A DNA stretch of 64,000 nt from Vibrio sp. 16 (lineage in GTDB: Bacteria; Pseudomonadota; Gammaproteobacteria; Enterobacterales; Vibrionaceae), in NCBI RefSeq assembly GCF_963681195.1, contig NZ_OY808997.1:930001-994000 (forward strand), read 5' to 3'. The position numbers and the translations under genes are program-made. A model generated the notes under the pieces. The model saw nothing but the letters and a program-made list of their open reading frames with translations. It was not told the DNA's origin and made no database searches. How positions within the stretch are numbered: the stretch's first letter is position 1; each line of letters opens with the position of its first letter. Of this stretch, positions 21,263 to 27,566 are shown piece after piece.

Positions 21263-21289
21263 TAGAAACTCAATGGAACATTGTTACTC

Positions 21290-21736
21290 ATGAAATATCA
21301 ACAGCTTGAAAATCTAGAATGTGGATGGAAGTGGACCTATTTAATCAACAAATGGAAGGCTGGTGAAGCCATCACTCGACACATTGATTCAAGTGAAGCT
21401 GAAGCCGCTATCAATGAGCTTCGCAATATCGAGCATGAGCCAACTCAAGTTTTAGAGTGGATTGAAAACCACATGTCACTTGAGTTAGATAACAAACTCA
21501 AACAAGCCATTCGAGCGAAGCGTAAAAGACACTTCAACGCTGAACAGATTCACACCAAGAAAAAATCGATCGACCTAGACTATCGGGTTTGGGAAAAACT
21601 GTCCTATCGAGCAAACGAGCTAGGATGCACGTTGTCCGACGCAATTGAATACTTGCTGTCAGAGGCTTCAAGAAGCGAGAAAGCCAGTAAAACGGTGAGT
21701 AGCCTTAAAGAAGATTTGTCGAAGTTATTAGATTAA
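21290..21736 (+). CDS. matP: Macrodomain Ter organiser MatP
   Basis: DNA-binding protein that recognises matS sites, compacts the terminus macrodomain and tethers it to the divisome through ZapB. The 148-residue sequence has the family N terminus (MKYQQLENLECGWKWTYL). A four-helix region follows, then the ribbon-helix-helix part KKKSIDLDYRVWEKLSYRANELGCTLSDAIEYLL that reads matS. A C-terminal coiled coil (ASKTVSSLKEDLSKLLD) mediates bridging of tetramers. The ATG at 21290 matches the family start. Four perfect matS sites and dif lie within 10 kb, so this gene sits at the centre of the region it organises. Confidence 0.96.
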   Translation: MKYQQLENLECGWKWTYLINKWKAGEAITRHIDSSEAEAAINELRNIEHEPTQVLEWIENHMSLELDNKLKQAIRAKRKRHFNAEQIHTKKKSIDLDYRVWEKLSYRANELGCTLSDAIEYLLSEASRSEKASKTVSSLKEDLSKLLD

Positions 21737-23762: not shown

Positions 23763-23903
23763 ACGTGTTTGTTCACTCAGAGTATATCGGGGATATACCA
23801 TAAGGCACTATAACTAAATTTCAACTTACAGACGATATAAAACAACATGGTCACTAAATTAAATAACCGAATCAAAAACATAACAAAATTCATATAAAGA
23901 CTT

Positions 23904-24161
23904 ATGACATTGCGAGACAATATGACAGCTCTATGTGACGCCGTCACTAAGATCATATTTGCTCACTGTAGACAACTGTATCAACAAGGTTATTTACTCT
24001 GTAAAAACGGCTGCTATCCGATTAGCCTAAGTTTTGTTAACGCGAGCGAGCGGTATTGGGTAAAGGCTAGCTGTTTGTTTACCTTTAATGATCAACATGC
24101 AGAGCCAACGTGCATGGTCGCTATAATAAAGCAGATGAAATGCTGCGAAACAACAACGTAA
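23904..24161 (+). pseudogene. Small ORF of unknown function, 3' end replaced by IS remnant
   Basis: A possible 85-residue Cys-rich protein (MTLRDNMTALCDAVTKIIFAHC...). I do not recognise it. Its last 10-20 codons run into sequence that on the other strand encodes the transposase fragment. If it was once a gene, its 3' end was therefore lost to the insertion. No good ribosome site is visible. A perfect matS site lies inside it at 23935. It may be non-coding. Confidence 0.3.
23935..23947. other. matS: matS site next to dif, perfect consensus
   Basis: GTGACGCCGTCAC matches GTGACRNYGTCAC fully. It is the closest matS to dif, about 540 bp to its left. Confidence 0.88.
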
Positions 24162-24466
24162 ATCTCATGTTGCTCGGTAAGCTTCTCACAAGCAAACGTT
24201 GGCGAAAAGTCAGCATATTGAGCGCGTATGATGTTCAGAACCTCAGCCCGAAAAGCATCAGGATAACGTCGGTTACTCGGACGACCACGTGCACCATGTG
24301 CCAACGAAGATGCGCCATGTTGGTTTAGCTGACTCAATAAACGTCGAACTTGTCGAGTGCTTATATTAAGTATGTCGGCGGCGTCAACTTGACGGAGTCG
24401 GCGTTCGCGAACATCTTGCAGCACTTTAAAACGATTAATGTCTCGGTCACTCATTGGAATTAGCAT
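24092..24466 (-). pseudogene. Truncated ISNCY-type (IS1202-like) transposase, N-terminal fragment
   Basis: About 100 residues at the start (MSDRDINRFKVLQDVRERRL, ADILNISTRQVRRLL, GASSLAHGARGRPSNRRYPD, YADFSPTFACEKL) match the helix-turn-helix N terminus of ISNCY-family transposases as I know them. A full protein would be several hundred residues with a DDE domain, which is absent. Similarity stops near 24155, and the remaining codons are unrelated sequence. The fragment cannot transpose. Its promoter-proximal end lies only about 20 bp from dif, so the left-over end of the element almost touches the XerC arm. No clear terminal inverted repeat or target duplication could be recognised. Confidence 0.75.
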
Positions 24467-24487
24467 CGGTTAAGATCCTCAAAGTTA

Positions 24488-24515
24488 AGTGCGCATTATG
24501 TATATTATGTTAAAT
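24488..24515 (+). other. dif: dif site, XerC/XerD recombination site of chromosome I
   Basis: A 28-bp site with left arm AGTGCGCATTA (XerC), centre TGTATA and right arm TTATGTTAAAT (XerD). Compared with the E. coli dif sequence, which I recall, it differs only at two positions in the left arm. It is the place where chromosome dimers are resolved under FtsK control and where filamentous phages and other Xer-dependent elements integrate in Vibrio. It is flanked by matS sites on both sides (23935 and 26677). The 135 bp to its right hold only AT-rich hairpins (for example ATTAATC-AA-GATTAAT at 24624-24639) and no gene. Confidence 0.95.
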
Positions 24516-24650
24516 GGAGGTCTTATTGATTAATGTACTCTCAATACAAACGCCTCACCCGTTGTTCTTCTCTAGGATTAAACATAACTGCATTTACCAT
24601 AAAATACCTAATAAACACAAACAATTAATCAAGATTAATGTCCGTGCTTA

Positions 24651-26372
24651 TTAGGATCTCCCCAAAACAGATTCTATTGAACGTTGTATTTCTTTACCTC
24701 TTATAGGCTTCGAGACAAACGCGTTCATTCCCGAGTTCAAACATGCCTGTTTATCTTGCTCCATCGCGTGGGCTGTCAAAGCAATAATGGGCGTATGTCT
24801 ACAAAACTTTCGGATTTCTTTTGTTGCGGTAAGTCCATCCATGACAGGCATCGAGACGTCCATAAAAATCAGATCTACAGCTCCCATGTTCTCCTTGATG
24901 TATTTGACTGATTTTTTGCCATCGTTGACGATAGCTACTTTGTGTCCGAGCCGCTCTAGTAGTAATTTTAAAACCATTTGGTTTGTCTCTGTATCTTCTA
25001 CTACCAACACTGACAATGGGCCTGTTCCTTGGCTCTTTGAAAGTCGCGGCTGCGTCAACTCATGTCCAGATTTAACTGATATAGGTAATTTTATTTTAAA
25101 CCTAGAACCTTTCCCTTTTTCACTTTCAACGCGTATGCTTCCGTTCATTAAAGTGACCAAGTGTTTTGAAATGGTTAAGCCAAGTCCACTGCCACCATAG
25201 CGCCTAGTGATGGAGTCATCTGCTTGTTTAAACTGGTTAAACACTGTCTCAATACGAGAAGGATCAATACCAATACCAGTATCTTCGACTTCGATGATAA
25301 GTTCTTGGCTAGTGACTTCTGCATGCAAAGATACATGGCCAGCATGAGTAAACTTGATTGCATTGCCTAGCAAGTTGAAAACTATCTGTAAGATTCTTGC
25401 CGGATCAACCCAAACAGAATGATGAGCATCAATATCAAGATTTACATTTAATTTCAAACCCTTAGCGTCCGATAGTGCGTAAAAGTGCTCTAGCATAAAC
25501 TCGAGTTCGTTTTTCAAATTTACCCACTGACATTTGATTCGAAACTCACCACTTTCTATTCTAGACAACTCCAAAATGTCATTAATTAGCACCAACAAAA
25601 GCTCTGCTGATGATTCCATCTTTTCCAAGATTTCTATTTGATGATCGCACTTTGAATCAGCCAAAAGAACGTCGACATATCCTAGGACTGCACTGAGAGG
25701 CGTTCTAAGTTCATGACTCATCATGGCAAGAAAGCGTGATTTCGCTTGGTTCGCTTGCTCTGCTCGAACTTGTGCCGATTTTAATTGGCGCGTTTTAATG
25801 TCAACAAGCTGTTGGAGCTGCTCAGTTCTTTCGATATCTATAAGAGCACGCTCCAGTAATGGCCTAAAACGTGACAGGGTGTCACGCGATTCAAGTGTAA
25901 ACTGCCCTACTTCTTCTCCCAACAGTACGATGATGGAATCGGTAATGGTGCCCTGTGCCCCAGTTATCAACGCGGAATTGATGTCGTAGTCTGTATTACC
26001 GACCAAATGGCTGAACTCTTGCGCATTATTTGGTTCGTATAGAATGATGCTTTCACCAGATAATGCGCGTTTGAAGCGGCTTTGATCCTGCCAGGCTAGA
26101 TTTTGAAAGCACGAACTCGACGCAAGTAAAGTATGATACGCGTGTTCGTTTTTACTTGGTTTGCTCAACACCAAAAAGTCAGAAAAGTTGATATAGAGTG
26201 ATAAGACTTTTTTGAGTTCTGTGAATATTTGTTGCTTGTCGGATGCGACGGTAATGCTTGATATTGCGTCTAAAATAGCGCGGTTCTCTTCGGCTAGTTT
26301 TGCCTCTCGCACTTGGCTCTGCTTTAGTTCAATTAGCGCTTCTTGTAGCTGTTCTTGTAATTTTAGACTCAT
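24651..26372 (-). CDS. vpsS: Hybrid sensor kinase VpsS-like, partner of NosP
   Basis: A 573-residue soluble hybrid histidine kinase. The order is an N-terminal coiled coil (1-40), a GAF-like region (about 45-185), HisKA with His220 in MMSHELRTPLSAV, HATPase with NLLGNAIKFT, EDTGIGI and GSGLGLTIS, and a receiver domain with Asp505 in FMDVSMPVMDG. It has no transmembrane segment, so it senses a cytoplasmic input. It starts 9 bp after the FIST-domain gene. In V. cholerae the equivalent pair is VC1444 (NosP) and VC1445 (VpsS), where VpsS feeds the LuxU/LuxO quorum-sensing relay and biofilm genes, and heme-bound NosP inhibits the kinase when NO binds. I infer the same role from domain content and linkage. 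Confidence 0.85.
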   Translation of the reverse strand: MSLKLQEQLQEALIELKQSQVREAKLAEENRAILDAISSITVASDKQQIFTELKKVLSLYINFSDFLVLSKPSKNEHAYHTLLASSSCFQNLAWQDQSRFKRALSGESIILYEPNNAQEFSHLVGNTDYDINSALITGAQGTITDSIIVLLGEEVGQFTLESRDTLSRFRPLLERALIDIERTEQLQQLVDIKTRQLKSAQVRAEQANQAKSRFLAMMSHELRTPLSAVLGYVDVLLADSKCDHQIEILEKMESSAELLLVLINDILELSRIESGEFRIKCQWVNLKNELEFMLEHFYALSDAKGLKLNVNLDIDAHHSVWVDPARILQIVFNLLGNAIKFTHAGHVSLHAEVTSQELIIEVEDTGIGIDPSRIETVFNQFKQADDSITRRYGGSGLGLTISKHLVTLMNGSIRVESEKGKGSRFKIKLPISVKSGHELTQPRLSKSQGTGPLSVLVVEDTETNQMVLKLLLERLGHKVAIVNDGKKSVKYIKENMGAVDLIFMDVSMPVMDGLTATKEIRKFCRHTPIIALTAHAMEQDKQACLNSGMNAFVSKPIRGKEIQRSIESVLGRS

Positions 26373-26381
26373 AAATTTGTT

Positions 26382-27566
26382 CTAATCTGAGTAAAAAGTT
26401 GCTGCCGAAATCATTAGATTTCCATGACCATTGTCACCATTGATAAAGCGGCCTTGTTCACCAAACGTGAACGGACAAATAAATGGAATATCACCCATCT
26501 CGTGTTTTATTTTGTCATAGACCTTGCCCATATCTTCCTCTAAATGAAGCATTGCTCCGGCACAAATCACACAAATAGCGCCCGTAAGTTGCGTATTGAG
26601 CTCTGACTGACGTCTTGCTTCTCGAATCACTCTTGCAGGTCGAGAGATTAACTGTTGTCTATCACCAGACATAAGTGTGACAATGTCACCTTGATTCACG
26701 TTGGTAAACAAGAGAATGCCTTGTTCATCCGTAACATTTATCGGATGTGAGAGCTTAAAGTAAGGTTGGTTGTATAACGTGCCTGCTATTCTTCCTAACG
26801 GGTATTGAGTCACAACCTGAAACTTAAACCATTCGGGAATGTCTTCACCTGAATGTTCTGAAATCCAGCCTCGATACCTTTCTTGGGCAGGCATATGGTC
26901 AATTTCTATGATTTCTCTGTCTTGACACTTGGTAATCAAGCCCTGGTACTTCGTCGGCGAGTAACCCGCGCTGAAGCCTGTGGTGAGCGGTTTGGAAGGG
27001 AAAAGTAGCTGAATTGAAATGCCTTGGCTTGTTGATTCGTCTTCATTAAATATTGACCATTGACCCTTGATAGCGTTGTCTGCCGCCGTAGCACCGATAA
27101 TAGGGATAGGCGTTTTGAATACATTATCAAATGCGCTGATTAGCTTTTCTTCAATGCCCGGCGTGCTATGAATGATTGCGAAACTGGGCACTTCTCCCAC
27201 TCGCTCAGCTTTACGGAGAGCCACATCTATCGCTGCCCTTGTTGCTTCTTCTATGACCGACGTATCTTCAATAGAGACTACGCCGCTTCCATAGGCGGTT
27301 GAATTAGAATCATAGATTGCTATTACGCCAATGACTGAGCCAAAGTGTAATCCCCGCTCTGTCATCAACCCTTTACATGTAGAACACCCAGTGATTGAAA
27401 CTTGAGGAAAGTAATGTTTAAAAGCCAATCTGAGTTTCTCAGCGCCATAATTTTGTGTGAAGTAGCAAATTATGCTCACTAAGTTAGTTCGGCAAATTTT
27501 GATGCTCAGTTCCTCTATGGCCTCTTGCTCATTAAGCCGATGAGTAATGTGGGTCTTAAAATCCAT
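26382..27566 (-). CDS. nosP: NosP-like FIST domain protein (nitric oxide sensor)
   Basis: A 394-residue cytoplasmic protein made of a FIST N domain (about 25-210, including ITGCSTCKGLMTERG, SFAIIHSTPGIEE, IIGATAADNAI) and a FIST C domain (about 215-375). FIST proteins of this kind linked to a hybrid kinase are NosP, heme proteins that bind NO and control the adjacent kinase. The start codon follows the stop of the upstream gene with no gap (TAA then ATG), so translation is coupled. The operon faces away from ccoN, which links NO sensing to the respiratory cluster. I could not pick out the heme-ligating histidine. Confidence 0.83.
   Translation of the reverse strand: MDFKTHITHRLNEQEAIEELSIKICRTNLVSIICYFTQNYGAEKLRLAFKHYFPQVSITGCSTCKGLMTERGLHFGSVIGVIAIYDSNSTAYGSGVVSIEDTSVIEEATRAAIDVALRKAERVGEVPSFAIIHSTPGIEEKLISAFDNVFKTPIPIIGATAADNAIKGQWSIFNEDESTSQGISIQLLFPSKPLTTGFSAGYSPTKYQGLITKCQDREIIEIDHMPAQERYRGWISEHSGEDIPEWFKFQVVTQYPLGRIAGTLYNQPYFKLSHPINVTDEQGILLFTNVNQGDIVTLMSGDRQQLISRPARVIREARRQSELNTQLTGAICVICAGAMLHLEEDMGKVYDKIKHEMGDIPFICPFTFGEQGRFINGDNGHGNLMISAATFYSD
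26677..26689. other. matS: matS site inside nosP, perfect consensus
   Basis: GTGACAATGTCAC matches GTGACRNYGTCAC fully. It is the only perfect matS I found to the right of dif in this window. Confidence 0.85.

Follow-up and report, generated by a model that had tools for sequence, protein, structure and literature searches.

The window analysed here, a 64,000-nucleotide stretch of Vibrio sp. 16, carries on its forward strand a complete 28-bp dif site (dif1, 24488–24515), which is made up of the XerC arm AGTGCGCATTA (24488–24498), the centre TGTATA (24499–24504) and the XerD arm TTATGTTAAAT (24505–24515), as the original prediction had read it. That prediction also placed all changes relative to Escherichia coli dif in the left arm, and we found two differences from the E. 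coli site GGTGCGCATAATGTATATTATGTTAAAT (one record, NZ_CP031609.1), both located there. A degenerate 28-bp dif pattern (three mismatches or fewer) matched once in the window, with one mismatch, and in none of 100 shuffles.

To the left of dif1, an ISNCY/IS1202-type IS remnant (24168–24487, minus strand) abuts the XerC arm, with a truncated transposase ORF at 24092–24466. The ISNCY model matched it below the cut-off, which we attribute to the ORF being cut short. The remnant is 96% like plasmid DNA of Vibrio nigripulchritudo and, judging from a longer relative (L010), appears to have lost the IS end itself, that is, ~73 bases of the presumed end. Its junction with the dif arm lies close to a shared AGTG. 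To the right, a hybrid histidine kinase gene (24651–26372, minus strand), which we take to be vpsS, points towards dif, so the proposed position of dif1 between an IS fragment and vpsS is borne out on both sides. Beside the kinase gene lies that of a FIST-domain, NosP-like protein (26382–27566, minus strand; matched by the NosP model below its cut-off). The matP gene (21281–21736, plus strand; NF003471, 234.5 bits, cut-off 165) is encoded 2.75 kb from dif. No phage genes were seen among the ORFs around dif1.

dif1 at the terminus of chromosome I

The whole genome comprises three contigs (4,658,079 bp), with dif1 on C1 (3,080,496 bp). The 21-bp dif core, allowing up to three mismatches, was detected at four places in it: dif1 (no mismatch), dif2 on C2 (two mismatches) and an inverted partner at each (three mismatches). 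Its own inverted partner aside, C1 holds no other dif within 3/21 mismatches, and the absence of a better second dif on the same replicon, on which the original prediction depended, is thereby confirmed. No dif within 3/21 mismatches was found on the third contig, C3 (46 kb by difference), either.

The window had been proposed to mark the terminus of Vibrio chromosome I, and the skew switch, the distance to mnmG, the polarity of KOPS and the matS sites all agree with this. Skew and KOPS were sampled on C1 in 40 stretches of 20 kb together with the window cut in three (43 segments). All 21 segments left of dif had a positive GC skew. On the right, the skew was negative in 21 of 22, the lone exception being the segment that touches dif (+0.003). 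The sign change expected at dif is therefore present in the sampled chromosome; the turning point, anticipated as a minimum, is a maximum of the cumulative G-C skew in this orientation. Using what we take to be the consensus sequences of KOPS and matS, we found KOPS in a ratio of 17:1 left of dif1 and 1:12 right of it in the sampled stretches, pointing to dif from either side; the window itself contains one KOPS, fewer than its shuffles. With mnmG as the origin marker, dif1 lies 1,542.5 kb from the origin, and half the chromosome is 1,540.2 kb.

As predicted, matS sites occur on either side of dif1 (11319, 13670, 23935 and 26677 in the window; 0.01 expected), among them those at 23935–23947, 541 bp left of dif, and at 26677–26689, 2.2 kb to the right. 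C1 has 12 exact matS sites, all at 780–1253 kb, around dif; C2 has 16 and C3 has one (G000:C3:26824), and a reversed-pattern control gave one. The genome also encodes XerD (390 bits; cut-off 329.6), FtsK-gamma and a second XerC/D-like protein (278 bits, scored with the XerD model) that we took as XerC. The site at 24488–24515 is dif1 of Vibrio chromosome I.

An inverted partner on the XerD side of Vibrionaceae dif sites

The search for a second dif returned an inverted imperfect copy beside dif1 and another beside dif2. The original prediction, correct as to dif, did not mention this partner, which lies 76 bp to the right of dif1. Aligning the flanks of dif1 and dif2 showed clear common sequence, besides dif, on the XerD side. 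At dif1, the partner has three parts. Box 1 (24577–24587, minus strand; ATTAAACATAA) is an inverted half-site that matches the inverted XerD arm at 10 of 11 bases. Box 2 (24592–24619, minus strand), separated from dif by the 76-bp spacer (24516–24591), is an inverted pseudo-dif with the XerD-like arm ATTTACCATAA (24592–24602, again 10/11 to the inverted XerD arm), the centre AATACC (24603–24608) and the degenerate XerC arm TAATAAACACA (24609–24619). Past TAAT, box 2 has 3.7 of 7 letters in common with the XerC arm in Vibrio and 3.6 of 7 in the other genera, with 2.3 expected; by eye, the dif centres and partner centres show no consistent match pattern. The third part is a palindrome (24607–24655) with arms CCTAATAAACAC (24607–24618) and GTGCTTATTAGG (24644–24655) that form 11 of 12 pairs around an inner TTAATC-AA-GATTAA, and it extends over the stop codon at the end of the kinase gene. 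Two boxes with up to two mismatches each arise in a single 200-bp flank in 51 of 5000 shuffles, and the case for the partner therefore rests on comparison between genomes.

We identified the dif core (one mismatch or none) in 92 of 99 Vibrio genomes, at 131 sites, and read all of these and dif2 of the window's genome (132 loci; the seven genomes without a close dif were left out). The partner (up to 4/21 mismatches) is present at 104 of the 132 loci on the XerD side and at none on the XerC side. One locus (L082), at which the automated call mistook the partner for dif, was excluded from the spacings; of the remaining 103 copies, 96 have two mismatches or fewer. Among 40 genomes with two loci read, both partners are present in 28, both absent in 11 and only one present in a single genome. 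The 28 loci without a partner belong to 16 genomes in which each dif examined lacks it (e.g., L092/L093 and L126/L127) and to one further dif2, indicating that Vibrio is able to do without it.

The linkage also holds in the reverse direction. An exact 21-mer of the partner was found in 116 stretches of genome contigs and, among the matches listed (80 of the 116), all are from Vibrio or 'Vibrionales'. Five of the 116 were dropped for short flanks; for the others, a dif (up to 4/21 mismatches) lies 57–144 bp upstream on the same strand in 109 of 111 cases (exceptions L161 and L256), and the controls gave at least five mismatches at best on the opposite strand and at least seven at best on the other side. 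With up to two mismatches, the 21-mer matched 81 of the 99 Vibrio genomes and none with the reversed pattern; for three of them (G037, G054 and G084) the sole match is the reversed reading of dif itself, so that 78 remain. Of the 296 Vibrionaceae genomes in the family-wide search, 241 or fewer match, from 11 of 13 genera (two genomes with the reversed pattern), an upper bound given that at least those three match only through the reversed dif. The same table has matches in at most 157 of the 198 genomes of the window's genus and 84 of the 98 from other genera, usually with two copies per matching genome. Of 20 sites picked among the matches listed outside the genus, 19 have a dif (exception L364).

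Elsewhere in the same order, only two of 228 genomes match, both from one genus. Of their three sites (L335, L336 and L352), one has half a dif 68 bp away and two lie ~0.8 and ~1.1 kb from a dif. E. coli genomes gave no match to the partner 21-mer at E 0.01. In a TLC junction record of V. cholerae (HM134800), dif and the exact 21-mer occur at a spacing of 69. In the plasmid collection, 12 records match, including three replicons of 1.8 Mb, and all seven of the 12 that were read have a dif-like site (2–4/21 mismatches) 56–161 bp upstream. A further locus, opened as an IS match (L011), has a dif-like site with a weak partner only (four mismatches, 188 bp).

In four of the 28 genomes with both partners (G094, G071, G020 and G051), the spacers of dif1 and dif2 are 88–99% alike (loci L031/L063, L114/L115, L078/L079 and L149/L150). 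This likeness starts close to dif, continues through the palindrome and breaks off at its end, and the dif centres differ. Among 11 dif1/dif2 pairs from partner-less genomes, the flanks next to dif are alike in G068 (score 96, null maximum 59) and barely so in G022 (64 against 63); the pair of G085 has a short near-perfect match that is not above the null (46 against 58), and the other eight pairs fail too.

The arms of the palindrome vary by species yet pair with each other: 29 of 60 distinct left arms are complemented (up to one mismatch) in their own tail, and 0.8% in the tails of other elements. In other genera the palindrome has a different look by eye. A transcriptional element in the interval from dif to the adjacent gene, be it a promoter, a terminator or a small RNA, would suit such variable but complementary arms, as well as the GC-rich stems observed in some spacers and the position of the palindrome at the 3' end of the gene beside both dif1 and dif2 in this genome. 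We consider such a transcriptional element highly improbable, as no promoter- or terminator-like site was found at 24400–24760 and no Rfam match up to E 1 at 23800–24800, and as it leaves the dif linkage, the orientation and the chromosomal phasing described below unexplained.

Simple binding of XerCD would not predict a variable palindrome, and the core of the palindrome, ATC-N2-5-GAT near the centre in 149 of 177 cases (8.6 by shuffle), suggests another protein. A protein other than XerC and XerD, either an orphan tyrosine recombinase encoded near dif or a nucleoid protein, could bind the partner and contact dif, the likeness to the XerD arm being secondary. A candidate is the orphan 319-aa tyrosine recombinase found 0.8 kb beyond the partner at dif2 (L005:8653–9612; G000:C2:1506655–1507611), which has relatives in 74 of 99 Vibrio genomes, one each, at E 1e-30. 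At that threshold, however, it is absent from partner-bearing G007, G008, G021, G034 and G038 and present in partner-less G013, G014, G015, G022 and G037. We rejected it as the trans factor since its occurrence does not track the partner, and, the boxes in the window agreeing so well with the XerD arm, we consider any binder of this kind unlikely. By eye, relatives of the recombinase are encoded within 2 kb of a dif in several genomes, partner-bearing and partner-less alike.

Helical phasing and mobile elements

The spacers can hardly be aligned between species (median alignment score per base 0.43). Their lengths cluster at 68–69, 78–80, 87–91 and 98–101 bp, which is ~10.5 bp apart. Between 5 and 20 bp, the best period for the 103 spacings is 10.4–10.5, and it stays the same after collapse to 79, 72 or 56 clusters. 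R is 0.56 for the 103 sites and 0.47 after collapse to 56 clusters, which controls in part for related genomes having spacings in common, and in each of four collapses none of 5000 jittered sets reached R at 10.5. Counted as 122 distinct events, the spacings have a best period (8–14 bp) of 10.6, with an R reached by none of 4000 jittered sets; 1081 of the 4000 had a best period of 10.2–10.8 by shape alone, never at the observed strength. When the main peak is set aside, the 71 events that remain are in phase with it (5.39 vs 5.49 bp, V-test u 6.5), and the mean cos goes down to 0.34 when off-peak spacings are counted once per value (28 values). Nineteen sites from other genera, with the phase preset, gave a mean cos of 0.66.

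Box 2 is phased better than box 1 (0.64 vs 0.52). The cos exceeds 0.5 for 73 of the 103 Vibrio spacings and is below 0 for 16. Both copies in the window's genome are off phase, 3–4 bp from a peak: the dif1 spacing of 76, which is 3 bp below the peak at 79, has a cos of −0.22 and the dif2 spacing of 75 a cos of −0.73. The mean cos is 0.09 for seven plasmid copies and 0.21 for three island copies. The phasing on chromosomes is consistent with contact between two protein complexes on one face of the duplex, as a preference and not a strict rule. A pyrimidine patch resembling a reverse KOPS at +38 to +42 was detected in 22 of 153 spacers (up to one mismatch; 5.75 by shuffle). The reversed pattern gave 11 against 6.05 by shuffle and the KOPS-like spacers come mostly from one clade by eye, and we regard the patch as a lead only.

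Mobile elements occupy both sides of dif. On the XerC side, IS-like ends were found at 19 of 153 non-redundant loci, 2–5 bp from the arm, and a common end lies exactly 5 bp off in 15 of them. IS1202-type elements insert beside Xer sites, and both this fixed distance and the ISNCY match in the window resemble them, apart from the window copy being without its end. Also on the XerC side, the window's genome has a filamentous prophage (L005:10547–17094) that abuts dif2 and whose repressor-like ORF runs on into the site, so that dif2 encodes the last residues of this ORF.

The partner itself is probably not of phage origin. Viral contigs with the 21-mer have it beside a dif in 13 of 13 cases, and its position is between dif and yciH in both cases seen closely (C2 of the window's genome and L046). 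In the collection of phages, 31 of 32 matching records are CTXphi, pre-CTX or TLC, and the other is a 23-bp match in an Acinetobacter phage. We take the Vibrio phage records to be host flank; in the one TLC junction record examined, the partner is beyond the annotated dif.

On the XerD side, we opened four chromosomes with more than one partner (G072, G005, G062 and G009). In the first three, an island with recombinase-like genes follows the XerD arm (30 kb, 38 kb and ~72 kb; the reading of the last covered 20 kb from the end next to dif and 2 kb from the opposite one). Insertion of the island strands the old partner at the far end behind GTTAAAT; the dif-end junction is GTTAAAT in G072 and G005 and GTTAAAA in G062, and there dif has acquired from the island a new partner, 62, 163 and 60 bp away, respectively. 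G009 has two partners without a dif within 260 bp, and no dif was found on that contig. In the recombinase trios of both G072 and G005, two proteins weakly match a phage-integrase family, below cut-off, and the third matches nothing. The large XerD-arm islands (L318, L320, L324 and L321) carry recombinase-like trios and helicase- or restriction-like genes.

The partner at the dif-proximal end of these islands could mean that it is a scar, namely the attachment end of ancient tyrosine-recombinase islands that inserted at the XerD arm, left after their loss and without host function. Such an origin would easily explain the turnover of spacers, it suits the weak phasing of plasmid and island copies, and dif2 of G038 has a seemingly island-type spacer (164 bp) joined to a host palindrome. 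Yet the partner is usually present in two copies in most of the 296 family genomes, and relatives of one island recombinase were detected in only six of 99 Vibrio genomes. A scar would moreover be expected to decay, not to keep 21 bp and, on chromosomes, a helical phase. In partner-less G037, a related recombinase match starts 134 bp beyond dif and the intervening sequence holds no partner, so this recombinase can do without it. We therefore find a scar unlikely, though less so than the other alternatives.

dif and its partner as a proposed composite Xer module

The reading that we prefer is that dif and its partner form a composite module with a protein-held loop, probably through XerC and XerD, to which we assign a probability of roughly one half. 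The wide spread, the linkage to dif on one side and in one orientation, the phase on chromosomes and the carriage by plasmids and islands look like what is expected of a cis-acting part of the Xer machinery. In most Vibrionaceae, dif would then be half of a module of roughly 140–170 bp. XerC and XerD, activated by FtsK, are expected to resolve chromosome dimers at dif1. On the XerD side, most often near a whole number of helical turns away, the partner would present box 2, box 1 and the palindrome. XerD is the first suspect as the binder because the boxes resemble its arm, and it is predicted to bind box 1 and box 2, probably together with XerC. XerD at the boxes could contact XerCD at dif on the same face of the DNA and so form a loop of ~8–11 turns, which a DNA-bending protein would probably help to close. 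The loop may be an accessory of an architectural kind, by which dif is gated, or brought into alignment, for FtsK-dependent synapsis. We lean towards a needed, architectural role of the loop since islands re-supply the partner, which suggests a reason for the copy that XerD-arm islands carry.

A more specific version, possible and in our view somewhat doubtful, is that dimer resolution in Vibrionaceae uses a two-site dif. The phased inverted pseudo-dif would allow an XerCD loop that switches dif between a closed and an FtsK-ready state, islands would re-supply the partner in order to be tolerated, and the attP pair of CTX-like phages would be a single-stranded copy of the host module.

The usual description of dif is that of a 28-bp site sufficient in itself, and in E. 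coli it functions on its own. The Vibrio site resembles the E. coli XerCD-FtsK system in its two arms over 28 bp, with 26 of 28 bases equal, and in its terminus, KOPS and matS context. It differs in its partner: no inverted XerD box (three mismatches or fewer) occurs within 300 bp on either side of E. coli dif (one record). If a two-chromosome family uses a conserved partner, FtsK control needs a second look, as do the choice between phage and chromosomal recombination at dif and dimer resolution by dif plasmids.

Plasmid cer and psi consist of a core Xer site and a cis-acting flank of 100–200 bp, on the XerC side, where the accessory proteins PepA with ArgR or ArcA bind. A core Xer site with a cis flank is likewise seen here, and the Vibrio module also occurs on plasmids. 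In contrast to cer and psi, the Vibrio partner lies on the XerD side only and consists of sequences like Xer half-sites. No accessory sequence was found on the XerC side at the 132 loci, the sole apparent match (L030) being a contig-edge artefact.

The attP hairpin of CTXphi contains two inverted dif-like sites ~90 nt apart. The Vibrio module of dif and box 2 is also an inverted pair, and it differs in being host DNA; in the two cases seen closely, the prophage is on the XerC side and the partner on the yciH side. The inverted pair in the attP of CTX-like phages may accordingly derive from the host. As in attP, each strand of the module, taken as single-stranded DNA, folds so that dif pairs with box 2; z is −1.6 for one strand, matched or exceeded by 15 of 200 shuffles, and −2.4 for the other (2 of 200).
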